DNA from: Thalassospiraceae bacterium LMO-JJ14
GTDB taxonomy: Bacteria > Pseudomonadota > Alphaproteobacteria > Rhodospirillales > Casp-alpha2
Length of the DNA: 64,000 bases
Assembly (NCBI GenBank): GCA_021555105.2
Contig: CP134604.1
Coordinates: 1 to 64,000 of the forward strand
Direction: 5' to 3'
Made by a program: the position numbers and the translations under genes. Positions 8,985 through 58,397 of this stretch are shown here, piece by piece. Each line of letters opens with the position of its first letter. Within the stretch, counting starts at the first letter, position 1. The notes under the pieces are model-generated. The model saw only the letters and a program-made list of their open reading frames with translations, made no database searches and was not told where the DNA came from.

Positions 8985-9583
8985 GACGCCTGCGCCTCGT
9001 CGCTCAGCGATCCGTCCTGCATCCGATAGCGATGTTGCGACATCCGTTCCGCCTGTGCCGGGTCGTGGGTCACAAGGATGACGATAATTCCGCTCGCCAA
9101 CTTTTCGTGCAACAGGCTTTCGACCTTCGACGTCGCGTCCGGATCAAGCGCCGACGTCGGCTCATCCAGTAAAAGCACGCGCGGCCCCTGCACCATGGCA
9201 CGCAGCAAGGCCAGACGCTGCCGCTCGCCGGTCGACAAGCGGCTGACGGGCCACGACATCACATCGCCATGAAATCCGAGTCGCGGCAGATAGCCGGCAG
9301 CGATGGCCTCGGCCTCGAAATGATCGCCGACCCGGTCCAGCCACCAGCCGCTGTCAGCGGCGACATAGGTAACCTTGCGGCGCCACATATGGGCTGGCAT
9401 GGCGCTTCTGTCCTCACCGTCCAACTGCACCGTTCCCGTGCAGGGATCAAGATCGGCGATGGCGCGGAGCAGAAGGGATTTCCCGGAGCCGGAAGCACCA
9501 CGGATGGCAATACATTCCCCGGCCGTCAATTCCAGGTCGACAGGCTGTAATATGGCGCGTGAAAGCTGTTTAACGACCAACAT
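8981..9583 (-). CDS. fetA: FetA-type ABC exporter ATPase
   Basis: A 200-residue ABC ATPase. Walker A is GASGSGKS near residue 29, the signature is LSTGERQRL near residue 116, and Walker B is VLLLDEPTSALDP near residue 136; the H-loop histidine follows in LVTHDPAQ. It is short, as FetA/YbbL proteins are, and pairs with the permease downstream through an ATGA overlap. ATP hydrolysis would drive export of iron (E. coli FetAB) across the inner membrane. The operon is divergent from the thioesterase gene, with 83 bases between; no Fur box is evident there. Confidence 0.9.
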   Translation of the reverse strand: MLVVKQLSRAILQPVDLELTAGECIAIRGASGSGKSLLLRAIADLDPCTGTVQLDGEDRSAMPAHMWRRKVTYVAADSGWWLDRVGDHFEAEAIAAGYLPRLGFHGDVMSWPVSRLSTGERQRLALLRAMVQGPRVLLLDEPTSALDPDATSKVESLLHEKLASGIIVILVTHDPAQAERMSQHRYRMQDGSLSDEAQAS

Positions 9584-37120: not shown

Positions 37121-38484
37121 GCGCCGTCCGCCCGCTCGAGATCGATCAGATGGATGAACGAACCGACGACGCGGCGGTCGGCCAGCCCGGTCTCGCCCAA
37201 TTCGCGGCCGCTCGCATCCTCGGCGCGGAACAACGGCAGGCCGGGGCCTTCCTCGACGACCGTTGCGAAGTGAAACTCGTGGCCGCGAAAGCGTGTCCTG
37301 GCCCCGCCCAGCGGACCGGCCTTGGAAAGCGTGACGCGGCGATAGCCGATATGCAGGCGCCGGGTGGCGAAACTGGTTTCCAGCGGCAGCAACCCGGCCA
37401 TCGGGTGGCGCCGCCCCTCGGCATCGGTCAGACCGTGGCCCAGCACCATGTACCCGCCGCATTCCCCGAAGATCGGCTTCGAGGCGTCTGCCGCCTGTTG
37501 CAGACCGTCCATGAAGTCCCAATTCGCCGAAATCCGCCCGGCGTGCAGTTCCGGATAGCCGCCCGGGAGATAGATCGCATTTGCTTTCGGATCCGGGGCC
37601 TGGTTGGTGAGCGGCGAGAAAAAGCTGATTTCCGAGCCTGCCGCACGCCAGCCTTCAAGGACGGCGGGATAGGCAAAGGCAAAGGCATCGTCGCGGGCCA
37701 CCGAAATACGCTGCCCCAGCGGCGGGATCAGCAGCGGTGCGTCGGATTTCGGGCGCACCGGCCACGGCCGCATGGTGCGGCGCAGGGCGGCAATATCCAG
37801 GTGCTCACCGATCCAGTCGGCGGCCTTGTCGAGAAACGCCTCGAGCTGGGTATGTTCGCGCGCCTGTATCAGGCCAAGATGGCGGGATGGCAATTCGAGG
37901 CTTTCGTTGCGGGGTAGCGCACCGAAAATTTCCAGATCGGGGGCGATCCGCTTCATGGCGTCCGTCAATATCTCCACGTGCCGGGCGCCGCCGACACGGT
38001 TGAAAATGACGCCGGCGATATCGACGCCCTTGCGGTGCGCGGCAAACCCCTTGGCCAGCACGGCGGCGCTCGCCGCCTGCTTCGATGCATCGATCACAAG
38101 AATCACCGGCCAGCCGGTGATTTCCGCCAGCGCGGCAGTCGAACCGTCGTGGATATCGTCGCTCGGCACGGCGCCATCGAACAGGCCCATGACCCCTTCA
38201 CAGACGATGTCGTCGGCCTTTGCCGCCATGTCGCCCGCCAATTCCTCCAGGGTTTCCGCGCGCATCGCCCATGGATCGAGGTTACGGCACGGCCGGTTGG
38301 TCGCCGCCGTGTGAAATGCCGGGTCGATATAGTCCGGCCCGGTTTTCGCCGAAATCACGTCGATCCCGGTTTCGCGGAGATGCCGAAGAAGGCCGAGCGT
38401 GATCAGGGTCTTGCCCGCGCCAGAAGACGGTGCGGCGATGATCAGGCCGCTGCCGGGAACGCCCGATAATCTGCGGGCTGTCAC
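37117..38484 (-). CDS. cobB: Cobyrinate a,c-diamide synthase (CobB/CbiA)
   Basis: A 455-residue glutamine-dependent amidotransferase that amidates the a and c side chains of (hydrogeno)cobyrinate using ATP. The synthetase domain begins with the P-loop [13 protein letters not shown] near residue 18; [13 protein letters not shown] near residue 43 is family-typical. The glutaminase domain has the nucleophile in [11 protein letters not shown] near residue 345 and the histidine in FRGHEFHFA near 400. GTG start 38484 overlaps the SCO gene stop (GTGA); the 3' end overlaps ycgN. It belongs to the large corrinoid locus that follows. Confidence 0.94.
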
Positions 38485-39203
38485 AGAAGCTTCCCGATCC
38501 TCTCGGCCATCGCCTGAGGTTCGGTGCCGTGCGAAAAATGAGTGATCAGTTTCCCGTCCGGCCCCACCAGATAAATAATCGAAGTGTGATCGACGAGGTA
38601 ATCCTGCGCATCGCTGCTCTCAGGTTCGTTGATCCGGAAATAGACTCTGTATTCACGCGTCACGGTCTTGATCTGCTCTTCGCTGCCGGTCAGGCCGATC
38701 GTGCGCGGATGAAAAAAGGATACATATTCGGCCAGATGCTCGGGCGTATCGCGGCCCGGATCGACACTGATGAACACCGGCGTGATCTTGGCGGCCTTTT
38801 CCTCGCCCAGCATGTCCAGTGCACTGGCGATGTCGCTGAGCGCCGTCGGGCAGACATCGGGGCAATAGGTATAACCGAAATAAATCAGCAAATAGCGGCC
38901 GAGGAAGTCCTTGTCGGTAACGGTTTTGCCGTTCTGATCGACCAGCGTGAAAGGGCCGCCGACCGACGGGCCGCTGCTGCTGAGCAAGCTGCCGGTGCCG
39001 CCGCGCTTGTCGAAATATTCCGTGCCGGCAAGCACGATCACAAAGGCGACGACGACAATCCCGACCAGCAGCAGCAAAAGCTTGCCGCCGGACTTCTTTT
39101 TCGGCTTTTCCGCTGCCGCTTCGGGCTCTATCGGGTCCAGCACATTGGGCATTTCCGGCGTCTGTCCGGGCCCGGCATCGGGTTCTTTTTTATCGTCGGC
39201 CAT
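38481..39203 (-). CDS. SCO1/SenC-family copper chaperone
   Basis: A 240-residue membrane-anchored thioredoxin-fold protein. A single helix (about residues 41-61) anchors it in the inner membrane with the domain in the periplasm. The copper site is Cys114-x3-Cys118 (YTYCPDVCPTALSD) with His206 (YLVDHTSIIYL). SCO proteins assist assembly of the CuA site of cytochrome oxidase or thiol redox chemistry. The proline/acid-rich N-terminus of 40 residues is unremarkable. ATG 39203 is used; it heads a coupled unit with cobB and ycgN, an unexpected link between a copper chaperone and corrinoid synthesis. Confidence 0.92.
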   Translation of the reverse strand: MADDKKEPDAGPGQTPEMPNVLDPIEPEAAAEKPKKKSGGKLLLLLVGIVVVAFVIVLAGTEYFDKRGGTGSLLSSSGPSVGGPFTLVDQNGKTVTDKDFLGRYLLIYFGYTYCPDVCPTALSDIASALDMLGEEKAAKITPVFISVDPGRDTPEHLAEYVSFFHPRTIGLTGSEEQIKTVTREYRVYFRINEPESSDAQDYLVDHTSIIYLVGPDGKLITHFSHGTEPQAMAERIGKLL

Positions 39204-39321
39204 AATACTTCCAGTCCTTGCGTGCGCGCCCGCCAATCATACGAGGATGCGGCATATCATCAAGTCCGCTTGCGTGCGCCAGACGTTGGCGCAGGCTCCT
39301 GTTCGGCCTACACTCGGGCGC

Positions 39322-40467: not shown

Positions 40468-41213
40468 AGACCCTCGTCATCCTGGGCGGCACCGCAGAGG
40501 CCAGAAAGCTCGCCGACGCGCTGGTCGACAAACACGGCGACGCCTTGCGGGTCATCACCTCGCTGGCCGGGCGCACGAAAAACCCGAAGCACCCGAAAGG
40601 CGAGGTCCGCAACGGCGGCTTCGGCGGCGCCCGGGGACTGGCAGATTATCTGCGCGACGTCGGCGCCACGCTGCTGATCGACGCCACGCACCCCTATGCG
40701 CAGCAAATCACCCGCCACGCCGCCGAGGCCAGCGACATAGCCGGGGTGGCGCGCCTTGTGCTCGACCGCCCAGCGTGGACGGAACAGCCCGGCGACCGCT
40801 GGATCCATGTCCCGAGCCTCGACGCGGCGGTGCGTGAAATTTCCCGGAAATCCGATGCCTGCCTGATCACCACCGGCGTCAACGACCTTGCCGCCTTTGC
40901 CCCGATCCGCACGAGCAAACTGTTCGTGCGGCTGATCGAAAAGCCGCAAACGCCGCTGCCCCTCGGCGACGCGGAAATCGTCATCGGCACACCGCCCTAT
41001 ATTAAAGACGACGAGACGGCGCTGATGCGTCTACTCGGAATCGATCTGATGGTCACCAAGAATGCCGGCGGCGCGGCCACCTATGCCAAGATCGAGGCGG
41101 CACGCGCACTCGGCATTGAGGTCATTATGATCGACCGCCCACCCTTGCCCGGCGGCGATACCGTCGCCGATGTCGAAGCGGCGCTGGCCCGCGCCGAGGC
41201 ACTTTTGGGTTAG
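40458..41213 (+). CDS. cobK: (Cobalt-)precorrin-6A reductase CobK/CbiJ
   Basis: A 251-residue NAD(P)H-dependent reductase of the macrocycle at precorrin-6A. ILGGTAEARKLADAL near residue 8 begins the nucleotide fold; LLIDATHPYAQQITRHAAEA near residue 72, CLITTGVNDLAAFAP and MVTKNAGGAATYAKIEAA near residue 193 are CobK hallmarks. Together with CbiD it completes two consecutive ring steps. The stop overlaps that of the convergent iron-sulfur protein gene by four bases. Confidence 0.94.
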   Translation: MSVKTLVILGGTAEARKLADALVDKHGDALRVITSLAGRTKNPKHPKGEVRNGGFGGARGLADYLRDVGATLLIDATHPYAQQITRHAAEASDIAGVARLVLDRPAWTEQPGDRWIHVPSLDAAVREISRKSDACLITTGVNDLAAFAPIRTSKLFVRLIEKPQTPLPLGDAEIVIGTPPYIKDDETALMRLLGIDLMVTKNAGGAATYAKIEAARALGIEVIMIDRPPLPGGDTVADVEAALARAEALLG

Positions 41214-42550
41214 TCGCCGACGTCGGGATGCCGCGTCCGGTCGATCGGCAGAAACTGCTCACCCAGCATGATCGACGCCACCGCATCCCTTGCCTGTTCC
41301 AGATCGAGCCCGTGCGCGGCGATGCTGTCCGCCGCCTCGGCAACGATGGCATCGACATCCTGCATGGCTTTCAGCCGCTTGAAGATATCTTCGTGGCGGA
41401 TGCCGATGCTGGCACCGATCAGTTCCATGTAGTTGACGATCTCGAACGGCCACGCGGTTTCGTGCGATGAAATTTCACGGTGATCGGCATGGAACACGCT
41501 GCACAGTGTCGTCACGCCGGCCTTTTCGGCAGCGTGCAGGACGCGCGCAATGGTTTCCTCGCGATACCCCGGCAGGGTCTCCAGCGACGACATCTGATAA
41601 CCGGCCCGTTCCAGATCCAGATCGACCAGTTCAAGCCCGGGGATCGCCCGCAGCAGGTTTTGCACCGCGTCACTTACGCCGCGCGCGCCGGGGAACTCGA
41701 ACAGCGCGACTTTCTTTTCGACCGGCGCCGTCATCAGCGTTTTCATCTCGTCGAGACGGCGCGCCATATAGACCGGGAACATGTTGATGTCGAACATCGG
41801 CCCGTCGGCTTTCTCGACCGACGGCAGGGCGATGTCGCCGAACTGGATTTGGCAGGTCGGACACCATGCCAGCACCTCGGCGGCGCCCGTTTCGTGAAAC
41901 CGCTGAATCGTCGTCAGCGCCTGCCTCGCGGCGTTGTCCGTATCGCCGGGGCGAAACTGCAGCACGCCGCAGCAATTGCCGGGGCCGCCGTAGACCTCGT
42001 AGGTCGCGCCCAGCTTGTCGAGCACGTCCAGACACAGAAGGCCGATATGCGGCGTCTTCAATAAATTGCAGCCGGTATAGAAAACCAGATCGGGGGCGCG
42101 TTCCGGTGCCGCGCGTTTCGCCGGCGGATTAAGCCGCGCCAGCACGTCCGGCGAAAGCTGCAGGCGTGACAGCAGGCGCACGCCCCGGCTCATCGCCTGG
42201 AACATTTCCCGCCCGGTGCCGCGGCGCTCGTCCATCGCGCCCCGCTCGTTGAGGCGGCGGCGCGCCATGGTCAACATGAAGCGCGGATCGATCCCCTCGG
42301 CGCAGGCGTCGATGCAATGCGCCGTACCGCAGCACGTTCTGGCCCATACTTCGGCTTCGGAAAGATGCGCGTCCCCCTTGAGGATATCGATAATCCCACC
42401 GGCCAGCGCTTGCGCAGGCGTCTCGCCGATCCCGGCCAGTAACGGTGTCGGACAGACCTCGGCGCATTTGCCGCACACCGTGCAGGCATCGACGATGCCG
42501 TCGATGCGGCGATCCAGATCGGCGATAAAGCTCTCAACGGTTGTGCGCAT
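41210..42550 (-). CDS. CCG-motif iron-sulfur protein in the cob locus
   Basis: A 446-residue cytosolic protein resembling HdrD/GlpC-type (heterodisulfide reductase-like) subunits. Residues 23-33 give a full 4Fe-4S motif C-x2-C-x2-C-x3-C (CTVCGKCAEVCP). A second set around 73-83 (CCGTAHCIDAC) lacks the usual spacing. A complete CCG signature follows: C-x31-CC-x35-CxxC (YTGC ... GNCCG ... CPTC), known to bind a noncubane cluster in Hdr. A second CCG is degenerate. No flavin or haem domain and no membrane segment is visible. ATG 42550 is fixed by GGAGG; ATG 42562 is possible. It is 75 bases after cobM on the same strand; a role as redox partner in corrinoid synthesis is inference. Confidence 0.8.
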   Translation of the reverse strand: MRTTVESFIADLDRRIDGIVDACTVCGKCAEVCPTPLLAGIGETPAQALAGGIIDILKGDAHLSEAEVWARTCCGTAHCIDACAEGIDPRFMLTMARRRLNERGAMDERRGTGREMFQAMSRGVRLLSRLQLSPDVLARLNPPAKRAAPERAPDLVFYTGCNLLKTPHIGLLCLDVLDKLGATYEVYGGPGNCCGVLQFRPGDTDNAARQALTTIQRFHETGAAEVLAWCPTCQIQFGDIALPSVEKADGPMFDINMFPVYMARRLDEMKTLMTAPVEKKVALFEFPGARGVSDAVQNLLRAIPGLELVDLDLERAGYQMSSLETLPGYREETIARVLHAAEKAGVTTLCSVFHADHREISSHETAWPFEIVNYMELIGASIGIRHEDIFKRLKAMQDVDAIVAEAADSIAAHGLDLEQARDAVASIMLGEQFLPIDRTRHPDVGD

Positions 42551-42625
42551 GGCGGCCTCCATCGTGAAGCCACGCTATGGGGTCCGCTGAAAAGCGTCAA
42601 TCAAGCCATTGTTATGGCAACATTT

Positions 42626-43390
42626 TCAGCTAGCCGTGCGCGGGCGCAGGACGTGATGATGGTCCTCGGCATAGAGCCTGGAATCCTCGAACGTTTCCGG
42701 TCCCATGACACGGCCGACCATGATCAGCGCCGTACGGGTGATGCCCGCCGCCTTCACCTTGTCGCGGATATCCGAAAGCGTGCCTTCGATGAACATCTCG
42801 TCCGGCCATGTCACACGATAGGCGACGACGACCGGGCAGTCGGCGCCGTAATGCGGGATCAGGCTGCGCTGCACATGCGCCAGGTTATTGACGGAAAGAT
42901 GGATCGCCAACGTCGCGCCGCTCTTGCCCAGCGTGTCGAGGTCTTCGCCCGTCGGCATCGACGACGAGCGCACGGCGGTCCGGGTCAGGATCACCGTCTG
43001 CGCCACGTCGGGCAGTGTCAGTTCCTTTTTCAACGCCGCCGAAACCGCCGCATAGGCGGACACGCCCGGCGTCACGTCGTAATCGATGCCGAGGGCGTCG
43101 AGCCTGCGCATCTGCTCGGCAACCGCACCGTACAGCGACGGGTCGCCCGAATGCACTCTGGCCACGTCTTTGCCGGCGGCAGCGGCTTTCTGCATTTCCT
43201 CGACGATCTGGTCGAGATGCATCGGCGCCGTGTCCATCACCAGCGCATCCGGATGCGCCTCGGCGATGATCGCTTCGGGCACCAGCGAGCCGGCGTAGAG
43301 CACCACGGGGGCGGCCTGAATAAGCTTCAGACCGCGCACCGTGATCAGGTCGGCGGCGCCCGGTCCGGCACCGATGAAATGAACGGTCAT
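42626..43390 (-). CDS. cobM: (Cobalt-)precorrin-4 C(11)-methyltransferase CobM/CbiF
   Basis: A 254-residue tetrapyrrole methyltransferase that methylates C-11 of precorrin-4 or its cobalt form. The family opening VHFIGAGPGAADLITVRG is followed by VLYAGSLVPEAIIAEA, the VARVHSGDPSLYGAVAEQM SAM loop near residue 75, and the VTPGVSAYAA stretch. Further on, RTAVRSSSMPTGEDL and VAYRVTWPDE are typical of this member. ATG 43390 overlaps the stop of the LPPGL-repeat gene (ATGA), which ties that unknown gene to the operon. Confidence 0.95.
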   Translation of the reverse strand: MTVHFIGAGPGAADLITVRGLKLIQAAPVVLYAGSLVPEAIIAEAHPDALVMDTAPMHLDQIVEEMQKAAAAGKDVARVHSGDPSLYGAVAEQMRRLDALGIDYDVTPGVSAYAAVSAALKKELTLPDVAQTVILTRTAVRSSSMPTGEDLDTLGKSGATLAIHLSVNNLAHVQRSLIPHYGADCPVVVAYRVTWPDEMFIEGTLSDIRDKVKAAGITRTALIMVGRVMGPETFEDSRLYAEDHHHVLRPRTAS

Positions 43391-43917
43391 TGGCCTCTGA
43401 TCACCCCTTCGAGGACATCGAGAATGAGGTCCGTGCCCTTTTGCACCAGAAGCACGTCATCGTCGACAACGACCCGCTCGACATTTTTCGGCAGCTTACC
43501 GAGCCTGTCTTCAAGATCGGGTGGCAGGTCGCCCTTCATCAGACCCGGCGGCAGCTGATTGCCGCGCTTGGCAAGACCCGGCGGCAACTGGGCGCGCTTG
43601 GCCAGACCCGGCGGCAGGCCGTTGCCGCGGCCCTTGCCGCTGGCGCCCTTGCCCTTGTTGCCCTTGTCTTTTTTCTTGGCTTTGTCTTTCTTGCCGTTCT
43701 TGTCCTTGTCGTCATCGTCGTCATCACCGGTCCGCTTCGCACCCGGAACCTTGTCGTAATATTCCTTGATGACACGCCTTTCCGCTTCCTTGAAGACGAT
43801 GTCGGCAAGATCGCCGAGAACGCTTCCGGCGTTCGTTCCCTGCGCCGGCGGTGTCGACTGTGCGTGCACCTGCGTCGCGGCAAAAATACCCAACAGGGCC
43901 AAAATCAGAACTCTCAT
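43387..43917 (-). CDS. Secreted LPPGL-repeat protein inside the cob operon
   Basis: A 176-residue exported protein I cannot name. A signal peptide ends at VHA (residue 19). A helical acidic segment (about 30-60) is followed by six Asp in a row and a Lys/Gly/Asp-rich tract (about 64-100). Then come LPPGLAKR twice, LPPGLMK and LPPDLEDRL at roughly 10-12-residue spacing, and a C-terminal ERVVVDDDVLLVQKGTDLILDVL. Similar LPPGL/LPPG repeats with a final DD-VL-V block occur in RcnB/CigR-like envelope proteins, so a periplasmic metal- or membrane-related role is possible. It is 18 bases after cbiG-cobJ and coupled to cobM by ATGA. Confidence 0.75.
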   Translation of the reverse strand: MRVLILALLGIFAATQVHAQSTPPAQGTNAGSVLGDLADIVFKEAERRVIKEYYDKVPGAKRTGDDDDDDKDKNGKKDKAKKKDKGNKGKGASGKGRGNGLPPGLAKRAQLPPGLAKRGNQLPPGLMKGDLPPDLEDRLGKLPKNVERVVVDDDVLLVQKGTDLILDVLEGVIRGQ

Positions 43918-43935: not shown

Positions 43936-45744
43936 TCATTCGGCCAGCTTGGCGGCATAGCCACGCGGCGTATAAACCCATTCGTGCATGCCGCGCCGGA
44001 TATGGCGCGTTGCGCGCGAGCCCACCAGAACCAGTGTCAGCATGTCCACCATATCAACTTCCAGCGCGGATAAAGTGATGACCCGCACATCTTCTTCCTC
44101 GCGGCCAAGATTGCGCGCCAACACCACCGGCACATCACCCGGCCGGTGCTGGAGCAGGATTTCCTTCGCCGCCGCCAGTTGCGTCCGGCGCCGCTTCGAT
44201 ACCGGATTATAGAACGCGACCGTGAAATCGCCACGTGCCGCCGCTTCGATACGCTGTTCGATCACCACCCACGGCGTCAGAAGATCGGACAGCGAGATCA
44301 GCGCAAAGTCATGGCCGAGCGGCGCACCGATCCGGGCCGCCGCCGCCTGCACGGCCGATATCCCGGGACTGACCCTGACCGCGACCCTGTTGAACGCCGG
44401 ATCGTCGTCACGGTCCAGCACCTCGAAAGCGAGCGCCGCCATGGCGTAAATGCCGGCGTCGCCGGAGCTGACGAGCACCACTTCGCGGCCTTCGGCGGCC
44501 AGTTCGATGGCGCGGCGCACCCGGGCTTCCTCTTCCGACAACTCGGACATGTGCCGCTGCTTGCCGGCAATCGCGCTGCCCAAAAGATCGAGATAGAGAC
44601 CGTAGCCGACCACGTCCGTCGCCTCCGCCAGCCAGGCGCTGACTTCGGGGGTGCGCCATGCTGCCTGACCGGGGCCGATGCCGACGATCGAAAGCCGGCC
44701 CCGGGCGCGGCCGATGGTTTCGGGATCGATCGGTACCGTTGCCCGGGCGACGGCACAGGTGGCGCGGGCCGATTTCCGCTTGGCGACGATCAACACCCCG
44801 TCGGCACCGCTTGCAGCCAGCGCCGCCGCTTCGCAAACACCGTGACAGCCGACCTCGGCGAACACCACGTCGGAAGGACTTTCAAGGCGCGGCGTCTCGG
44901 CTTCCAGCGTTTCGGCATCGAAAAAGCGCGCCGGCGCGTTCAGTGATTCGGCCAGCGCCAGCACCGCCGGTTCGTCGGCCTTGAGATCGAGCGAGACGAC
45001 ACACGCCACCGCGTCTTTGGCGAGACCGGCATCGGCAAGGGTTTCCATCACCAGTGCCGCCAATTCCCCGGGCGCGCAATTGCGCTCGCAACCGACGCCG
45101 ACGGCAAGGATCTGCGGATGAATGACGAGGGTCGCGTCATCGGGTGTCAGGGCCGCATCGGTCAGGCAAACCCCGATGGCCGCGGCGGCGTCGATACGCG
45201 GCACCTGCAGCCAGTCTGCCTTCGCAACGTGTGCATCGCGCTCGAGCCTGATTGCTTCGCCGTTCAGCATCGCCGCCATGACGGCTTTTGCCGGAGCCGT
45301 ATCGGCGATGCGCCAGCCGGACGGCGGATCGTCGAGCGCGAAACCGAGGCCAATATCCCCCGCCGTCGTTACCGCGGCGCCGATGCCGAGCATCCCCGCG
45401 ATGTCACGCGCCATCTTGTTTGCGCCGCGATGCCCACCCAGCACGGGAACCACGCACGAGCCGTCTTCGGCGATCGCGATCAGCGCCGGTTCGACGCGCT
45501 TGTCGCTCAGCACCGGGGCCACGGCTCGGACCAGAATGCCCGCCGCGCAGATGCCGATGACGGGACTACCGGCGGCGAACAGTTCGCAAATATGTGCCAG
45601 GGTATCCGTGAACGTCCGGTCGGGGCTTTCGGTGCGGTGCGCGAGGCCGTGCACCTCGGCAGCCGAGAACGCCGGGGCCAGCCTGCGCGCCAGCTTTTCA
45701 CCGGCGCCGGTCAGGACGACGAATATGGGTGCGGATGCGTTCAT
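43936..45744 (-). CDS. cobJ: CbiG-CobJ fusion (lactone hydrolase and C17-methyltransferase)
   Basis: A 602-residue fusion. Residues about 1-340 are CbiG (cobalt-precorrin-5A hydrolase): AAGILVRAVAPVLSDKR near residue 66 and PVLGGHRGANKMARDIAG near residue 99, and a CbiG C-terminal domain with AVGVGCERNCAPGELAALV near residue 210. Residues about 345-602 are CobJ/CbiH, which methylates C-17 with ring contraction (SIVGIGPGQAAWRTPEV, VVLVSSGDAGIYAMAALAFE, AVRVSPGISAVQAAAARIGAPLGHDF). Fusing the two gives one protein for ring contraction and loss of the C2 fragment. It overlaps cobI by four bases (ATGA). Confidence 0.94.
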   Translation of the reverse strand: MNASAPIFVVLTGAGEKLARRLAPAFSAAEVHGLAHRTESPDRTFTDTLAHICELFAAGSPVIGICAAGILVRAVAPVLSDKRVEPALIAIAEDGSCVVPVLGGHRGANKMARDIAGMLGIGAAVTTAGDIGLGFALDDPPSGWRIADTAPAKAVMAAMLNGEAIRLERDAHVAKADWLQVPRIDAAAAIGVCLTDAALTPDDATLVIHPQILAVGVGCERNCAPGELAALVMETLADAGLAKDAVACVVSLDLKADEPAVLALAESLNAPARFFDAETLEAETPRLESPSDVVFAEVGCHGVCEAAALAASGADGVLIVAKRKSARATCAVARATVPIDPETIGRARGRLSIVGIGPGQAAWRTPEVSAWLAEATDVVGYGLYLDLLGSAIAGKQRHMSELSEEEARVRRAIELAAEGREVVLVSSGDAGIYAMAALAFEVLDRDDDPAFNRVAVRVSPGISAVQAAAARIGAPLGHDFALISLSDLLTPWVVIEQRIEAAARGDFTVAFYNPVSKRRRTQLAAAKEILLQHRPGDVPVVLARNLGREEEDVRVITLSALEVDMVDMLTLVLVGSRATRHIRRGMHEWVYTPRGYAAKLAE

Positions 45745-48309: not shown

Positions 48310-49347
48310 TCAGGACTTGGCATCGGAGTCGTCATGGCCGTGATCGTGATCATGTTCGTGGCCGTGCGAATGCCCGTGATCATGACCATGATGATGGTGG
48401 TGATGATCGTGCTTGTGGCCGTGCCCGCGGCCCAGAAAGACACCGTGATCCTCGGCATTTTCCTCGACCCCGGCGCCCATCACGTGATGGTGGTGGCCGA
48501 CCTGCGCCATGCCCTGCTCGTCCTCGAAGCCCAGCACCTGTTCGCGGTATTTACAGAGCTGGCAGTTCATGGCGTTCGCTTCGCCGCCTTCGAGCGCCTG
48601 GTGAAAGCGTTCGACAAAAGTTTCGATAACGTGGTCCTGATCGTTGAGATAGCCGGCTTTGACGAATTCGACGTCGGGATATTTTTCGGCGGCCTCGTCG
48701 ACCCACTTGAAGATGCGGCGCACCAGAATCCCGGTGAACAGGAAGTACGGGAACACGACGATACGTTTGTAGCCAAGCCTGATCGCGCGTTCGAGGCCGG
48801 CATCGACAAGCGGAAAGGCGACGCCGGAATAGCTCACCTCGGCCCAGCCGAAGCCGATGCCTTCCCACAGCATGCGCGCGATCTTGGAAATGTTGGAATT
48901 GGCGTCCGGATCGTTGGTGCCCCGCCCGACGACCATCAGCAGCGTTTCATCGAGCGCGGTCCCGCCCCCGGCTGCCTCGACCGCTTCACGGACGCGCGCC
49001 TCGGCGGCCTTCAGCATCTTCGGATCGATCGCCAGATCGCGCCCGAAGACGACATCGATGGCGGGATTTTCGGCGGCGAAGGTATTGATTTCCGACGGCA
49101 GGTCGTTCTTCACATGTCCGGCGGCGAACAGCATGCCGGGCAGGCAGATGATCTTTTTCGCGCCCCGTTCCTTGAGCTTTTCCAGTCCGGTCCGAATCAC
49201 CGGCTCGGCAAACTCGAGGAATCCGCTTTCGATGTCGTGGCCGGGGAGCTTTTGCTTGAGCCGGACGGAGAGTTGGTTGAATTCGTCAACGGCGGCTTTG
49301 TCGCGGCTGCCGTGGCCGCAAATCATGACGGCGGCTTGATCTGTCAT
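48310..49347 (-). CDS. cbiX: Sirohydrochlorin cobaltochelatase CbiX, long form with His-rich tail
   Basis: A 345-residue class II chelatase of the long CbiX type that inserts cobalt into sirohydrochlorin early in the anaerobic route. VMICGHGSRDKAAVDEFNQL near residue 7 is the CbiX active site, with the catalytic histidine at 12, and KIICLPGMLFAAGHVKNDLP near residue 84 a second one. After the chelatase core, MNCQLC (260-265) gives the MxCxxC motif that holds a 4Fe-4S cluster in long CbiX proteins. The last 40 residues contain about 18 histidines in 33 positions, likely cobalt storage or delivery. It heads the cbiX-cobH-cobL-cobI operon. Confidence 0.93.
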   Translation of the reverse strand: MTDQAAVMICGHGSRDKAAVDEFNQLSVRLKQKLPGHDIESGFLEFAEPVIRTGLEKLKERGAKKIICLPGMLFAAGHVKNDLPSEINTFAAENPAIDVVFGRDLAIDPKMLKAAEARVREAVEAAGGGTALDETLLMVVGRGTNDPDANSNISKIARMLWEGIGFGWAEVSYSGVAFPLVDAGLERAIRLGYKRIVVFPYFLFTGILVRRIFKWVDEAAEKYPDVEFVKAGYLNDQDHVIETFVERFHQALEGGEANAMNCQLCKYREQVLGFEDEQGMAQVGHHHHVMGAGVEENAEDHGVFLGRGHGHKHDHHHHHHGHDHGHSHGHEHDHDHGHDDSDAKS

Positions 49348-49477: not shown

Positions 49478-50557
49478 TTAAGCCGCGCTTTCGGTCCGGC
49501 TCGGCGGCAACGATGCGGCGCGGTCCTCAAAAGCCTTGGCTTCGTCGGTGCGGCCCAGCGAACGCAGAAGCGAGGCATAGTTCTTGAGCCCCGTCACCAG
49601 TGACGGATGGCCGGAATCGAAGGTCCGCTCCTTGATCGACAGGGCGCGCTTCAGCAAAGGCTCGGCGGCATCCAGATTACCCTGCTTCTTGTACAGCAAG
49701 GCCAGGTTGTTGAGGTCCGTGGCGACGCCGGGATGATCGTAGCCCAGCACGCGTTCGTCGATCATCAGCGCACGCCGGTATAAAGGTTCCGCCTGATCGT
49801 AGCGGCCCTTGGAATAATGGATCAGCGCCAGATTGTTGAGCGACGTGGCGACGTCCGGGTGATCGTTACCCAGCGTCTTTTCAAGCAGCCGCAGTCCGCG
49901 CGTGAAAGCCTTCACCGCATTATCCGAATCGCCGCTCTGATAGCACGCAGTCCCGAGCTTGTTGAGCACCTCGGCGCGGCGCTCGTCGGCGGTTGGGGGC
50001 AGTTCCTCGACCGCCTGTTCATAAAGCGCGCGGGCGTTTTCGGGCGCCATCAGCACCATGTACAGATCGGCGGCGATGACCTTCGCCGTCGCCCCGGCCT
50101 GCAGCATTTTGCCGGCGCGCTCGCGCAGCCTACGGCCTTCCTCGCCTTCGTGCGTGCCGAGTTTTTCGGCCAGGGTGATGGCTTTTTCGAACTCGCCACC
50201 CTCAAGCGCGGCCAGCGCCTGTTGCTGGCTGTCGGCCAGCCCCTCGCCGATCGGCAGAAGCTCGCGCAGTTTGCGGTGGATGATGTTGTATTCGCTGGCG
50301 AACTCGCGCAGCCGGGTGTCCTGCTCCTTGGCGCCGATGCCGCGCGCCCTGAGAATGCCCTGCAGGCTGACGAAGGCAGGGTTTTCGCGCCCGATCGGCG
50401 TATCCACGCGATCTTCGAGATCGGACTCCGCACGCGGCTCGCCGCCTGCGCGGCCACGCGCCACCCACATGCCGACGAAGGCGCCGACGACGGCGGCAAT
50501 CCCGGCAGCCAGTGCAATGCCTGCCCACTGCGGCAATTCGGCGAATGAAAGGTCCAC
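49478..50557 (-). CDS. Membrane-anchored TPR protein
   Basis: A 359-residue protein with one N-terminal membrane helix (about residues 11-32, WAGIALAAGIAAVVGAFVGM) and, after an acidic linker, six or more TPR units of the kinesin-light-chain type: DVATSLNNLALIHYSKGRYDQ, AEPLYRRALMIDERVLG, DLNNLALLYKKQGNLDAA. No enzymatic domain is seen. The helix should anchor it in the inner membrane with the repeats in the cytosol. GTG 50557 is supported by AAAGGAAG 6 bases upstream. It lies between cbiX and cbiB, 130 bases upstream of cbiX on the same strand, but nothing links it to corrinoid synthesis. Confidence 0.8.
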   Translation of the reverse strand: MDLSFAELPQWAGIALAAGIAAVVGAFVGMWVARGRAGGEPRAESDLEDRVDTPIGRENPAFVSLQGILRARGIGAKEQDTRLREFASEYNIIHRKLRELLPIGEGLADSQQQALAALEGGEFEKAITLAEKLGTHEGEEGRRLRERAGKMLQAGATAKVIAADLYMVLMAPENARALYEQAVEELPPTADERRAEVLNKLGTACYQSGDSDNAVKAFTRGLRLLEKTLGNDHPDVATSLNNLALIHYSKGRYDQAEPLYRRALMIDERVLGYDHPGVATDLNNLALLYKKQGNLDAAEPLLKRALSIKERTFDSGHPSLVTGLKNYASLLRSLGRTDEAKAFEDRAASLPPSRTESAA

Positions 50558-51776: not shown

Positions 51777-53261
51777 TCACCGCGCCAGCGCCAGCAACCC
51801 GTCCAGATCCATGTGCGTTTCCAGATGCGCCGCCAGGCCGTCGAGCGCGGCATCGACGCGGGCCGCGTAATCGGTCTCGCCGGCGCGCCCGTCCCGGAGC
51901 CGGGCCAGAAACGCATGGCGGAAATCGTCCGAGGCGAAGATGCCGTGCAGGTAGCCGGCCATGACCCGCCCATCCGCCGACACCGCGCCGTCGCTGCGGC
52001 CTGCGTCCAGCGTCAGCCAGGGGCGTTCGGTATCTTTCCCGGTGGTGCGGCCCATGTGCATTTCATAACCCGCAACCGGCGCCCCGGTGAGGCTTTCCGT
52101 GCCCGAGACCTCGACCAGCGACTTGTCGCCGCCGATCACCGTTTCGACGTCCAAAAGGCCGAGACCTTCGGCGGTTTCCGGCGCGCCCTCGATGCCGTCG
52201 GGATCAGATAACGTGCGGCCCAGCATCTGATAGCCGCCGCACAGCCCGACGACGAGACCGCCACGCCGGTGATGCGCGGCAATGTCGATATCCCAGCCGG
52301 TTTCGCGAAGCGCCGCCAGATCGGCCAGCGTCGCCTTCGATCCGGCCAGAAGCACCACATCGGCATTACCCGGCAAGGCGTCGCCGATCTCGACGATTTC
52401 GACACGGACATCCGGCTCCGCCGCCAGCGGATCGAGATCGTCGAAGTTGGCGATGCGCGGCAGACGCGGCACGGCGATGACGATCGCTTTATTTTCACTT
52501 TCCGCTTCGCGGTTATCCAAGGCCATCGCGTCTTCCTTGGGCAGCACCCGGGCGTCCTTGAAATACGGCACCAGACCGAGCGGCTTCAACCCGGTCCTTT
52601 CGGCGATGATCTTCATGCCGTCGTCGAACAGACTGGCATCACCGCGGAACTTGTTGATGACGAAGCCTTTAAGATGCGCCCGGTCGGCGTCCGAGATCAC
52701 CGCGTGCGTGCCGACGATCTGCGCAATGACGCCGCCCCGGTCGATATCGCCAATCAGAATCACCGGCACGCCGGCGGCTTCGGCAAAGCCCATGTTGGCG
52801 ATGTCGGCATCGCGCAGGTTGACCTCGGCCGGGCTGCCGGCGCCTTCGACCAGTACCAGATCGGCGCCGTCACCGACGATGGCGAAGCTCTCCAGCACGC
52901 GGTCGAGCAGACCCGCCTTCATATCGTAGTAATCGCGCGCCCGGGCATTGCCCGCGACTTTGCCCTGCACCACTACCTGCGCACCGATATCGGATTGCGG
53001 CTTCAAAAGCACCGGGTTCATGTGCACCGAAAGCGGCACGCGCGCCGCCAGCGCCTGCAGCGCCTGGGCGCGGCCGATCTCGCCGCCATCCTGAGTCACG
53101 GCGGCATTGTTCGACATGTTCTGCGGCTTGAACGGGCGGACCTTGAGCCCGCGATTGGCGAACGCCCGGGCGAGCCCGGCGACCAGCAGGGATTTACCGA
53201 CATCCGAGCCCGTGCCCTGAAACATCAGGGCCGGGGCGCGCTTTGCCCCGGTGGCGCTCAA
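51777..53261 (-). CDS. cobQ: Cobyric acid synthase CobQ
   Basis: A 494-residue glutamine-dependent amidotransferase that amidates side chains b, d, e and g of adenosylcobyrinic a,c-diamide. [20 protein letters not shown] near residue 11 is the P-loop region, [20 protein letters not shown] and [25 protein letters not shown] follow as expected, and the glutaminase nucleophile lies in [12 protein letters not shown] near residue 338, with a histidine in EMHMGRT. The start is TTG 53261, overlapping the SYLF gene stop (TTGA), which implies translational coupling; ATG at codon 13 would remove part of the N-terminus. Confidence 0.95.
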
Positions 53262-53962
53262 TATTTGGAAAGGACGGCGGCCAGACGGTCGGCGCGGGCC
53301 ATGCGGTTCGCCGGATTGGTGACGATATCGCGTGGCGTCTTGCCGGTGCCGTAAACCGCTTCGTTGATGTCCTGACGCCGTGCAATCACCGCGCCCTCGA
53401 CACTGGCGCCGACATAGCCGCCGACCTTGGCGTTGGCGAAGGCGAGAACATCGGCGCCGAGATTCGTCGTCGTCGAAGCTTCCGCACCGACGCCGTAAAT
53501 CCCCGCCGTGACGCCCGCGTCGGCACCGATCTTGGCCTGATCCTTGAGGACCGCATCAAGCGCGCCCTGATTGCGGATCACCAGAATGATTTCCGTGTCC
53601 TGGGCGCCGATCTGGATGCCGAAGCTGCCCGCGCCCAGGGTATAGAAGGCCGGTGCGCTCCAGCGCCCGGGACCGGTGCGGACCATCATCAGACCGTTAC
53701 CCGCCTCGCCGCCGATGAAGAAACCGGCCTTGATGACGCTCGGGAAGATGGCGATGGCGACGGAATCGGGCAGGTACTTGGAAAAGTTCTGCAGCCCTTC
53801 AAGGGTCTGAAACCGCTCGACGGTGGCGACGGAAGCATCGACCAGATGCTCGGCCTTGAGGACCGGTGATTCATCGAGTTGCGCGCACCCGGAAAGACCG
53901 GTGAGCACGGCACAAGCAGCGGTTACGGAAAGAAAACGGCGGCGCGAGAAACCGGAAAGCAT
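53258..53962 (-). CDS. SYLF-domain (YSC84-like) lipoprotein with Tat motif
   Basis: A 234-residue exported lipoprotein. The N-terminus has a twin-arginine motif SRRRFL (residues 6-11) and a lipobox LSGC with Cys26. The mature domain is a SYLF/YSC84-type lipid-binding fold: [20 protein letters not shown] near residue 75, [40 protein letters not shown] and [19 protein letters not shown]. Bacterial members are of unknown role. ATG 53962 with AGGAG 7 bases upstream is preferred to 53983. It lies 10 bases after cobO and is coupled to cobQ, so it is embedded in the corrinoid operon; the reason is not known. Confidence 0.85.
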
Positions 53963-53972
53963 GCATATTCTC

Positions 53973-54599
53973 CTAAAATTCAATACCGACCTGCGCTTTA
54001 ACGCCGGCCCGGAACGGATGCTTGATCTGCGTCATCTCGGTCACCAAATCGGCGATCTCGATCAGTTCGTCCTTGGCGTTACGGCCCGTCACCGCGACGT
54101 GCAGCATCTCGGGCTTGTTCTGCAGGACCTCGATCACTTCATCGAGGGGCAGGTTCTCGTAACGCAGCACGATGTTCAGTTCATCCAGGATGACCATATT
54201 GTACGATGGATCGTTAATCATTTCTTTCGCCAGTTCCCAGGCCTGGCGGGCGGCGGCGATATCGCGCGCACGATCCTGCGTTTCCCAGGTAAATCCCTCA
54301 CCCATGGCCTTGATTACGCATTGCTCTGGAAACTTGTCGAGCACGACGCGTTCGCCGGTTTCCCAGACCCCTTTGACGAACTGCACGATGCCGACCTTCA
54401 TCCCGTTGCCGATGGCGCGCACGGCCAGCCCCATGGCGGCGGTCGACTTGCCCTTGCCCTTGCCGGTATGAACGATCACGAGACCCTTTTCGATGGTCTT
54501 GGTGGCGAGGATCTTGTCGCGCGCGGCTTTCTTCTTGGCCATCTTCTCGGCATGGCGCGCGTTCAGTTCGTCTTCGGTCATATCGTCCTTGCTGCTCAT
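53973..54599 (-). CDS. cobO: Cob(I)yrinic acid a,c-diamide adenosyltransferase CobO
   Basis: A 208-residue CobA/CobO-type ATP:corrinoid adenosyltransferase that places the upper 5'-deoxyadenosyl ligand on Co(I). The P-loop is VHTGKGKGKSTAAMGLAVRA near residue 45; GNGMKVGIVQFVKGVWETGE, the FTWETQDRARDIAAARQAWE helix and MVILDELNIVLRYENLPLDE complete the family pattern. Its C-terminal TGRNAKDELIEIADLVTEM is canonical. An acidic/lysine-rich N-terminal 40 residues precede the fold. It is 33 bases after cobN and 10 bases before the SYLF gene. Confidence 0.95.
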   Translation of the reverse strand: MSSKDDMTEDELNARHAEKMAKKKAARDKILATKTIEKGLVIVHTGKGKGKSTAAMGLAVRAIGNGMKVGIVQFVKGVWETGERVVLDKFPEQCVIKAMGEGFTWETQDRARDIAAARQAWELAKEMINDPSYNMVILDELNIVLRYENLPLDEVIEVLQNKPEMLHVAVTGRNAKDELIEIADLVTEMTQIKHPFRAGVKAQVGIEF

Positions 54600-54632: not shown

Positions 54633-57600
54633 TCAAGCGCCTCGGGCGCCCAAGCGCTGTAACACATCGCGCGTCGAATTCAGGCGCGGCGACCACAGGC
54701 CGCGATCCTGCGCTTCCATGAGCCGCTGGGCGATATCGCGCAGCGCATCCGGGTTGACGTCTTCCAGAAACCCGCGAACGTCGGCGTCGTCCAGATAGGC
54801 CTGGAACACCAGATCGAAATGATGATCTTTGACGGCGCCGGTGGTCGCCGCGAAGGCAAACAGGTAATCGACCGTCGCCGCCATTTCGAAGGCGCCCTTG
54901 TAACCGTGCCGCCTGACGCCGTCGATCCACTTCGGATTGACGACGCGGGCGCGGACGACACGCGCGATCTCGTCTTCAAGCGGGCGGACCACCGGGCGCT
55001 CGGGCCTGGAATGATCGTTGTGATAGACGGCCGGGCGCTGGCCCCGTTCGGCGTTGACCGCCGCCGTCATACCGCCTTCGAACTGATAATAGTCATCGGA
55101 ATCCAGAAGATCGTGCTCGCGGTTGTCCTGATTGTGGATCACCGCCTGCACGCGGCCGAGCCGGTCCCTGAAAAGCCCGTGTTCGGCAGCCCCCTCGGCC
55201 CCCGCCCCGTAGGCATAGCCGCCCCATGCCACATAGGCGCCGGCGAGGTCGGCTTCGTTCTGCCAGCCCTGCTCGTCGATCATCGCCTGCAGTCCGGCGC
55301 CATAGGCCCCCGGTTTCGAGCCGAAGACCCTGAACCCGGCGCGCCGGCCGGCATCCCTTGCATCGACGCCTTCCGAGACGAGCCGCTCGGTCTCGGCCCG
55401 CACACGCGCCGCGATCGGATTTTGTGCTTCGGGCTCATCCAGCGCGGCGACGGCGCGCACCGCACTGTCGAACAGATCGATCAGCGCCGGAAAAGCGTCG
55501 CGGAAGAACCCGGATATCCTGAGCGTCACATCGACGCGCGGGCGGTCCAGCAAATCGGGCGGCAGAATCTCGAACCCGGTGACGCGCCGGGATGCGCCGT
55601 CCCATGTCGGGCGCACACCCATCAGCGCCAGCGCCTGCGCGATGTCGTCGCCGCCGGTGCGCATGTTCGATGTTCCCCATGCCGACAGCGCCATGACTTG
55701 TGGCCACTCGCCGTGGTCCTGCAGATAGCGTTCGACCAGCAAAGCCGCCGAGGCCCACCCCAGCGTCCACGCCGCCGGGGTCGGCACGGTGCGGGTATCG
55801 ACGGAATAGAAGTTGCGTCCGGTCGGCAAAACATCGGGGCGGCCGCGCGTCGGCGCACCGGACGGGCCGGGGGCGACGAAGCGTCCGTCCAGCGCCGTCA
55901 GCAGACCGTCCAGTTCGGCATCGCCACTCGCGGCGACACGGTGGCGCAGATCATCGTGGAGCCAGCCCATGACAGCCTGCGCGTTCGCCCATGCCCGATC
56001 GCAGTCCCTGTTTCCGGCGACCAGTTCGGCCGCCAGCAATTCCAGCCGCTCCACGCTGTCACCCGTCGAGCGCCACGGATCGTCCGACACGGTTTGCAGC
56101 GCCTCCGGCTTCGGGCCGATCCAGGCTTCTGCCATGTCGCAATCCAGCGGATCGAAGCCGAGGCCCAGGTCCGCCGCCAGCGCACGGTGCAGGGACTGAT
56201 CGGCATCCTTGCCGTTTGCCCGCGGCACCCGCACCAGCGCCACCAGAAGATCGGTGAGCAGCCGCCCTTCGGGGCTTTCGCCGAACACATGCAGGCCGTC
56301 ACGAATCTGCAGTTCCTTCAGCTCGCACAGATAACCGTCGAGCTTGGCCAGCGCATCGTCTTCACTCTCATCGACGGCAATGCCGATGTCCTCGTCGAGA
56401 CCGGTAGCGCGGCACAGCGACAGGATATTTTCCGTCAGCACCCTGAGCCGGCGCGGATCGACACCCGCCGCCTCGTAATATTCATCAACGAGCTGTTCCA
56501 GGTCCTTCAGCGGGCCATAGCTTTCGGCACGGCTCAGCGGCGGCGTCAGATGATCGATGATGACGGCGGCGGCGCGGCGCTTGGCCTGCGTGCCTTCGCC
56601 GGGGTCGTTGACGATAAACGGATAGATATGCGGCATCGGCCCGAGGGCTGCTTCCGGAAAACAGTCTTCGGACAGCGCCAGCGCCTTGCCCGGCAGCCAT
56701 TCCAGGTTGCCGTGCTTGCCCATGTGGCAGACCGCGTCGGCGCGAAAGCCGCGCTCCAGCCAGGCATAGAACGCGAGGTAGCCGTGCGGCGGCACCAGCG
56801 CCGGGTCGTGATAACTCTGCACCGGGTCGATGTTATAGCCGCGCGCCGGCTGCAAACCGATAACGACGTTGCCGCAGCGGTACGCGGAAATCGCAAAGCT
56901 GCCGCAGTCGACCTCGCCCGGCATATAGAACGGGTCGGTTTCGGGCGCGCCCCAGCGTTCCAGCACCTGTTCGCGCACGGCGGGCGCCAGCGCGGCGAAC
57001 CAGATCTGATAGTCGGCAAGCGACAGGGTTTCGGAAATGGCGCGTGTCGCCAGCGCCTTGAAATCGTTGGTCGGTCCGGCCTTGAGACGTTCGATCAGCG
57101 CTGCGCCGTCGGCGGGGGCATCGGCAATCCTGTAACCGGCTTCGTCGAGCGCCTTGAGCACGCGGATCGTGCCCGCCGGTGTATCCAGCCCGACGCCGTT
57201 GCCGAGTCTGGCGTCCTTGTTCGGATAGTTGGCCAGCACCAGCGCGATGCGGCGCGCATCCGCCGGGGTGCCCCCGAGCTTCGCCCAGTTGGCGGCGAGC
57301 CGCGCGACAAAGCGAAGCCGGTCCGGCACCGGTTCGTAGGTGACGATGTCGCTTTCCGTCGCATCGTCACGGCGCGCCCGGCCCTTGAAGGAAACCGCGC
57401 GGCTGAAGATGCGCCCGTCGACTTCCGGCAACGCCACGTTCATGGCGATGTCGCGTGCCGACAACCCGCGCGTGCCGCTTTCCCAGCCTTCCCGGTTACC
57501 GCCCGAAAAGACGACCTGCAGCACAGGGCAACCGGCGGCATCGAGCGGCCCCGGCGTGAAGTCCCTGCCCGGTGCGGAAACCGCGAACCCGGTCGCGTTC

Positions 57601-58397
57601 AGCACGACAGCCGGCGGGACGGCTTCATAAATACCGGCGATGGTGTCGGCCGAAATCGGATCCTTGAGGCTTTGCGCGAACACCGGCAGCGGATTGAGAC
57701 CGGCGTCTTGCATAGCCGCGATCATCCCGTCGACGGCGGCAAGGTTTCCCGACTGCACCAGGGCACGGTAAAAAACCAGCGACGCGACCGGCCGCCCGTC
57801 GGTCCAGTGGCTGCGGACATCGTCCAGCGACGGCGTTGCTGCACCCGGCCAGTAAAGCCCGGCCCGTAACAGTGCCGCCGGTTCGCGCCAGTCGGTCCCG
57901 GCGCCCGCAAGATGCGCCATATATAACAGAAGATTGCGGCTGTTGGCCGGGCCGCCGTGCACCCCATATTGCCACAGACGGTGACAGGCTTCGGCGTTGA
58001 GCGTCGAGAACGCCGACAGTTCCGGATCGGGCTGATCGTCGCCCGGCAGCACGGCAAGGTGAATGTTCCGGCTGCGGCAGGTCTCGGCGATCTGCTCGAT
58101 GCCGTAGGGCCAGTAGCCGTACCCGCCGAGGATCCGGACCACGACAATGCGCGTGTGAGCGACAATTTCGTCGACGTACAGATCGACCGACATGTTGTGG
58201 CCGAGCTGCATCAGATTGGCGAGCCGCAGGGACGGCACATCGACAGCGTCATCGCTTAACTGCCGCCTGGCGTCGGCCAGCAGCGCCAGTTCGGTGTCCG
58301 CCGCCGACAGAAAAAGCATGTCGCCCGGGGTCTGACCCAAATCGACGGCTTCCTCGCCATCCGTAATGGCGCCCGGCTGTGCGGCTAGAAGATGCAT
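54633..58397 (-). CDS. cobN: Cobaltochelatase subunit CobN
   Basis: A 1254-residue large subunit of the ATP-dependent aerobic cobaltochelatase, which inserts cobalt into hydrogenobyrinic acid a,c-diamide. Blocks near residues 500-590 (EVDCGSFAISAYRCGNVVIG, GYNIDPVQSYHDPALVPPH, VCHMGKHGNLEWLPGKALAL) and the C-terminal YAYGAGAEGAAEHGLFRDRL, NQDNREHDLLDSDDYYQFEG and RRHGYKGAFEMAATVDYLFA are diagnostic for CobN/BchH-type subunits, the last set for CobN. Length agrees with CobN (about 1250). The partner AAA subunits CobS and CobT of the chelatase are not in this window. cobO follows after 33 bases. Confidence 0.96.
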   Translation of the reverse strand: MHLLAAQPGAITDGEEAVDLGQTPGDMLFLSAADTELALLADARRQLSDDAVDVPSLRLANLMQLGHNMSVDLYVDEIVAHTRIVVVRILGGYGYWPYGIEQIAETCRSRNIHLAVLPGDDQPDPELSAFSTLNAEACHRLWQYGVHGGPANSRNLLLYMAHLAGAGTDWREPAALLRAGLYWPGAATPSLDDVRSHWTDGRPVASLVFYRALVQSGNLAAVDGMIAAMQDAGLNPLPVFAQSLKDPISADTIAGIYEAVPPAVVLNATGFAVSAPGRDFTPGPLDAAGCPVLQVVFSGGNREGWESGTRGLSARDIAMNVALPEVDGRIFSRAVSFKGRARRDDATESDIVTYEPVPDRLRFVARLAANWAKLGGTPADARRIALVLANYPNKDARLGNGVGLDTPAGTIRVLKALDEAGYRIADAPADGAALIERLKAGPTNDFKALATRAISETLSLADYQIWFAALAPAVREQVLERWGAPETDPFYMPGEVDCGSFAISAYRCGNVVIGLQPARGYNIDPVQSYHDPALVPPHGYLAFYAWLERGFRADAVCHMGKHGNLEWLPGKALALSEDCFPEAALGPMPHIYPFIVNDPGEGTQAKRRAAAVIIDHLTPPLSRAESYGPLKDLEQLVDEYYEAAGVDPRRLRVLTENILSLCRATGLDEDIGIAVDESEDDALAKLDGYLCELKELQIRDGLHVFGESPEGRLLTDLLVALVRVPRANGKDADQSLHRALAADLGLGFDPLDCDMAEAWIGPKPEALQTVSDDPWRSTGDSVERLELLAAELVAGNRDCDRAWANAQAVMGWLHDDLRHRVAASGDAELDGLLTALDGRFVAPGPSGAPTRGRPDVLPTGRNFYSVDTRTVPTPAAWTLGWASAALLVERYLQDHGEWPQVMALSAWGTSNMRTGGDDIAQALALMGVRPTWDGASRRVTGFEILPPDLLDRPRVDVTLRISGFFRDAFPALIDLFDSAVRAVAALDEPEAQNPIAARVRAETERLVSEGVDARDAGRRAGFRVFGSKPGAYGAGLQAMIDEQGWQNEADLAGAYVAWGGYAYGAGAEGAAEHGLFRDRLGRVQAVIHNQDNREHDLLDSDDYYQFEGGMTAAVNAERGQRPAVYHNDHSRPERPVVRPLEDEIARVVRARVVNPKWIDGVRRHGYKGAFEMAATVDYLFAFAATTGAVKDHHFDLVFQAYLDDADVRGFLEDVNPDALRDIAQRLMEAQDRGLWSPRLNSTRDVLQRLGARGA

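Follow-up and report, generated by a model that had tools for sequence, protein, structure and literature searches.

A predicted exported protein of the CigR type as a conserved, optional member of the B12 gene cluster in an alphaproteobacterial order

A small gene, here called X, lies between cbiG-cobJ and cobM in the cobalamin (cob) operon of Thalassospiraceae bacterium LMO-JJ14, within the 64-kb window, i.e., the whole stretch of DNA analysed in this study. Sequence comparisons across the order support X as a conserved, optional member of the cob cluster. The kind of protein is itself known, but its place in a B12 operon is apparently new to description.

The gene and its conserved place in the cob cluster

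The gene and its junctions are as follows.

43387..43917, minus strand: X, putative exported CigR-type protein of 176 aa, ATG start
43387..43390, minus strand: 4-nt ATGA overlap of the X stop and the cobM start
42626..43390, minus strand: cobM (precorrin-4 C11-methyltransferase), the downstream partner at the junction (TIGR01465, 324 bits, cut-off 259.65)
43936..45744, minus strand: cbiG-cobJ fusion, the upstream neighbour, separated from X by an 18-bp gap

The open reading frame, its location and the ATGA overlap had been described in an earlier note made from the sequence and were confirmed here; NCBIfam and Pfam identify the neighbouring products as CobM, CbiG and CobJ. That X is a real gene under purifying selection follows from dN/dS values of 0.03–0.21 in a codon comparison of same-genus pairs with finite dS, several of the pairs having dS near or past saturation, and from homologues in 89 of the 281 genomes of the order. 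Identity to same-genus homologues amounts to 60–70% by tblastn and 66–80% by genome search, and pN is lowest in the C-terminal domain. One same-genus copy (G006/L007) carries an in-frame TAA near the start, which may reflect a later start codon, decay or an error in the MAG. No second copy of X was found in the genome, where a single match was at chance level (E 0.44).

The ATGA junction is kept exactly in four relatives (L050, L051, L052 and L057) and reads TAATGA in a fifth (L053). Exact 4-nt overlaps also join cobH to cobL, cobI to cobJ, SYLF to cobQ, Sco1 to cobB and cobU to cobW, and because such overlaps are routine across the operon, that of X is not special. Co-translation of X with cobM, which the earlier note took from the overlap, is thus plausible from a geometry that is general in this operon; the overlap itself stands.

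Homologues of X were detected in 40 of the 100 nearest genomes and, order-wide, in the 89 genomes mentioned above, with cobM present in 214 of the same 281. The gene order cobJ-X-cobM was found in all six same-genus relatives with an X match. According to coordinates and neighbourhoods, the window's own family has 15 genomes with this order, and about 14 further genomes of the 281-genome set (families f4, f6, f9, f13, f19, f22 and f26) share it, as does one genome from outside this set (G053, f7); in G087 (f21) cobJ-X lies at a contig end. The arrangement spans about ten families of the order and is found, for example, in Magnetovibrio blakemorei MV-1 (L101). Three other arrangements occur: cobL-X-Sco1 in L045, cobV-cobC-X-SYLF in L032/L059, and, accompanied by genes for DsbD_2 and Sco1, cobD-X-cobA in L033/L089. 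The L032 case is weaker due to 7% contamination of its source MAG (G084), which also has a cobJ-cobM junction without X (L186). The recurrence of cobJ-X-cobM, together with the position of X beside other cob genes in three relatives, supports its description as a companion gene of the B12 cluster. Random placement of homologues, named in the earlier note as the outcome that would speak against such a role, is not what we observed within the order, where the place in the cob cluster is conserved.

X shares the cluster with further conserved genes of envelope type.

38481..39236, minus strand: Sco1/SenC, envelope protein, 4-nt overlap with cobB/cbiA
49478-50557: TPR protein, envelope-type
53258..53983, minus strand: putative lipoprotein of the SYLF (Ysc84) type between cobO and cobQ, 4-nt overlap with cobQ

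Sco1 lies near X in two of the rearranged clusters, and a SYLF homologue adjoins X in L032/L059; both genes persist in many clusters without X. Two other features of the cluster were observed. An Fe-S/CCG-domain protein (GlpC-like, 41210-42562) between cobM and cobK occurs in the window's genus, is absent from most other families, and might be part of the ring-contraction step. The same single cluster encodes both a CbiX-type chelatase whose tail is very rich in His (48310-49347) and a full-length CobN (54633-58397), alongside CbiD and CbiG.

Architecture, family and a proposed role

The following elements were recognized along the 176 residues of X.

Residues ~1-19: signal peptide, by inspection
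Residues 44-56: helix, confident in the AlphaFold2 model
Residues 61-99: D6/K-rich linker, low confidence in the AlphaFold2 model
Residues ~101-138: four LPPxL repeats
Residues 146-169: three-strand C-terminal sheet

The N-terminus is hydrophobic and has a signal-peptidase-like site between ATQVHA and QST, likely cut after VHA. By inspection, a hydrophobic N-terminus and an A-x-A-like site are present in X and nearly all homologues, from which we infer a periplasmic location. The repeats, which follow the D6 run and the K/G-rich linker, read LPPGLAKR, LPPGLAKR, LPPGLMKG and LPPDLEDR in order. All parts of the architecture given in the earlier note (export signal, linker and four repeats) were therefore seen, the export signal by inspection.

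X alone matches the CigR family NF040487 with 26.7 bits (E 5.9e-6), below the NCBIfam cut-off of 78 and thus outside strict membership, and yields no Pfam match up to E 10, including to RcnB (PF11776). A profile built from an alignment of 20 homologues matches the solved C-terminal domain of CigR (4ew5) with an E value of 3.3e-14 over profile positions 97-172 (hmmsearch). In an AlphaFold2 model built from a 63-homologue alignment, the C-terminal domain has a pLDDT of ~90. Foldseek searches with this model returned two chains of 4ew5 as the top matches (best E 2.5e-3), followed by 2l1s, which we take to be a YohN/RcnB-type NMR structure. Superposition with VIA-align gave a Z score of 9.0 over 77 residues (rmsd 2.8) for 4ew5 and 3.5 for the next entry; the match to 2l1s is weak (Z 2.7). 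All 63 aligned homologues match NF040487, and 17 of them match PF11776. The profile match to 4ew5, the structural superposition and the NF040487 matches among homologues show that the RcnB/CigR-like resemblance noticed earlier is real, and on sequence and model X is a CigR-type member of the CigR/RcnB superfamily, with CigR nearer than RcnB.

Like CigR, X is a small, putatively exported or membrane-associated protein in which LPPG repeats precede the same C-terminal domain, and cigR, too, lies in an operon, one for ion transport (mgtCBR-cigR; PMC8264917). Binding of CigR to the membrane protein MgtC is described in PMC11942329. Differences to CigR are the score below the family cut-off, the D/K-rich linker, the cob operon, the lack of an adjoining MgtC and the lack of a secretion-system or virulence context. 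RcnB likewise belongs to a periplasmic family and has a similar C-terminal motif, but X lacks a PF11776 match, reaches a Z of only 2.7 against 2l1s and is flanked by neither rcnA nor rcnR. PMC13371490 describes RcnB as a presumed modulator of the efflux pump RcnA. Our literature search found no paper covering CigR and RcnB together, and a search for CigR and cobalamin brought up nothing apparently relevant among the matches listed.

Based on these analogies, we tentatively favour, at somewhat below even confidence, an accessory role for X as an optional yet stably kept part of the cob superoperon: an exported CigR-type protein that would tune ion or envelope homeostasis from the periplasmic surface of the inner membrane. 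X would be produced along with the B12 enzymes but act across the inner membrane from them. Its compact C-terminal domain would most likely dock on an inner-membrane partner, as in the pairs CigR-MgtC and RcnB-RcnA, while the charged, flexible D/K-rich linker may extend into the periplasm, and homeostasis would be tuned while the cob genes are on. Partner binding is what we infer from the analogy; neither MgtC, which CigR of Salmonella binds and restrains, nor RcnA is encoded beside X.

Clusters without X and homologues elsewhere

As a control we used 20 cob loci of genomes whose slot lacks X. Here cobJ and cobM are separated by 8–22 bp in 14 loci and by 65–103 bp in four; one locus (L166) has cobM without cobJ beside it, and in another (L153 of G036, 8986-9496) the slot is occupied by an unrelated frame of 130 residues that is GxxExxY-like by eye. 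The tight spacing in X-less clusters indicates that X is a clean insert, and the unrelated frame in L153 that the slot accepts foreign genes. The many cob clusters of the order that lack X further indicate that it is dispensable for B12. Since Sco1, SYLF, dapA and the rest of the cluster often keep their order with or without X and synteny of the whole cluster is thus conserved regardless, position alone is no proof of a functional tie. Moreover, the place of X could be inherited from one insertion, so that its conservation does not count as separate evidence genome by genome. In a tree of X (139 columns) the cob-linked sequences cluster, with 12 label changes compared with 26 after shuffling, which is compatible with one or several origins.

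The main rival explanation, which we regard as a serious possibility though a doubtful one, is that X is a passenger whose function, a general one in the envelope, has nothing to do with B12. It would have entered an ancestral cob superoperon by one insertion and been inherited in place, an insertion between two closely spaced genes being tolerated and the cluster rarely rearranged. The tight cobJ-cobM junctions and the occupied slot in L153 fit this, as does the company of other non-B12 genes in the cluster (Sco1, SYLF, TPR and dapA), of which two show 4-nt overlaps as well. However, three rearranged clusters still have X next to cob genes, and cobM is commoner in genomes with X (83 of 89) than in those without (131 of 192; naive p = 2e-6, kinship ignored).

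The neighbourhoods of homologues outside the cob cluster, most of which lie beside unrelated genes, also favour the passenger reading. The family ranges over other Rhodospirillales, gammaproteobacteria, Desulfobulbaceae, Myxococcota and Nitrospinota. In gammaproteobacteria, the homologue most often lies directly ahead of an MsrB-like gene and is oriented divergently from lexA. A homologue in Kiloniella is convergent with permeases of an ABC-3 (metal-type) transporter, and other unlinked homologues have mla-like and mixed neighbours; LexA, MsrB and mla were named by reading the sequences rather than by a family-library scan. No single metal theme emerges.

The gammaproteobacterial arrangement is a second conserved neighbourhood of the family in its own right, with the homologue before the MsrB-like gene and usually 100–270 bp divergent from lexA (loci L061, L075, L079, L081, L082, L094, L097, L100, L103, L113 and L115). 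A siroheme synthase link in gammaproteobacteria was considered and not taken as evidence, the CysG gene being convergent and 0.5–2 kb away behind lexA/X/msrB. Likewise, the Desulfobulbaceae locus L078 was not counted as cob-linked, as 2 kb containing genes on the opposite strand separate the homologue from the cbi genes. No homologues were found on plasmids.

Cobalt, late B12 synthesis and the meaning of the arrangement

As a functional companion of B12 synthesis, a role that we consider unlikely, X would bind a membrane-anchored enzyme of the late steps (CobV/CobD) or a cobalt transporter from the periplasm and, during B12 production, would shield the inner membrane or adjust ion flux.

In a cobalt-specific reading, X would buffer Co(II) in the periplasm or pass it on for B12 synthesis; such a cobalt role is possible, yet we think it quite improbable. 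It draws on the place of X in the cob cluster, on membership of the RcnB superfamily (E. coli RcnB affects Ni/Co homeostasis according to earlier work quoted in PMC13371490) and on acidic runs of at least 5 residues, which are commoner in cob-linked than in unlinked homologues (11 of 31 versus 3 of 66, naive p = 1.5e-4). Yet the same run is missing in many linked orthologues, and the linker of X is net basic (K/R > D/E). Mature X contains no His, no Cys and one Met, Cys is absent from all 31 cob-linked homologues, and X shows neither conserved His/Cys/Met nor a fixed set of acidic ligands. A cobalt importer candidate is encoded far from X in the same genome.

L173 5776-6943, genome position 1.718 Mb: genes for CbtA and CbtB under a high-scoring cobalamin riboswitch (107 bits)

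This gene set (PF09489/PF09490), 1.7 Mb from X, is related to cobalt and resides with X in one genome. X is unlike it in being a different protein and not a transporter, and it has no detectable riboswitch; none reached the gathering score in the 64-kb window. Elsewhere in the genome PF11776 (RcnB) has no match, and NicO has a sub-threshold match only. The periplasmic metal role, perhaps for cobalt, that the earlier note proposed from the acidic run and the family resemblance is therefore not supported, given the missing His and Cys, the variable acidic run, the distant CbtAB with its riboswitch and the unrelated genes beside unlinked homologues.

Least probable, and in our view very unlikely, is that X stabilises an inner-membrane complex of the late B12 steps, anchored by the cobamide synthase (CobV/CobS) and CobD, an excess of which harms membranes: high levels of cobamide synthase dissipate the proton motive force in E. 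coli, an effect relieved by CobC or PspA (PMC8749415), CigR acts on a membrane protein (PMC11942329), and X adjoins cobV-cobC in L032/L059 and cobD in L033/L089, but this neighbourhood is found in two genomes only, one of them the 7%-contaminated MAG behind L032, and many X-less genomes keep their B12 cluster.

A fixed place in a superoperon among envelope passengers is by itself no proof of a metal or B12 role. CigR and RcnB mark the two studied extremes of a family of small exported proteins that is widespread, and a functional companion, if true, would link this superfamily to coenzyme synthesis. The clade described here, with a CigR-type protein in its B12 operon in several arrangements, offers a natural setting to probe the membrane role of the family.
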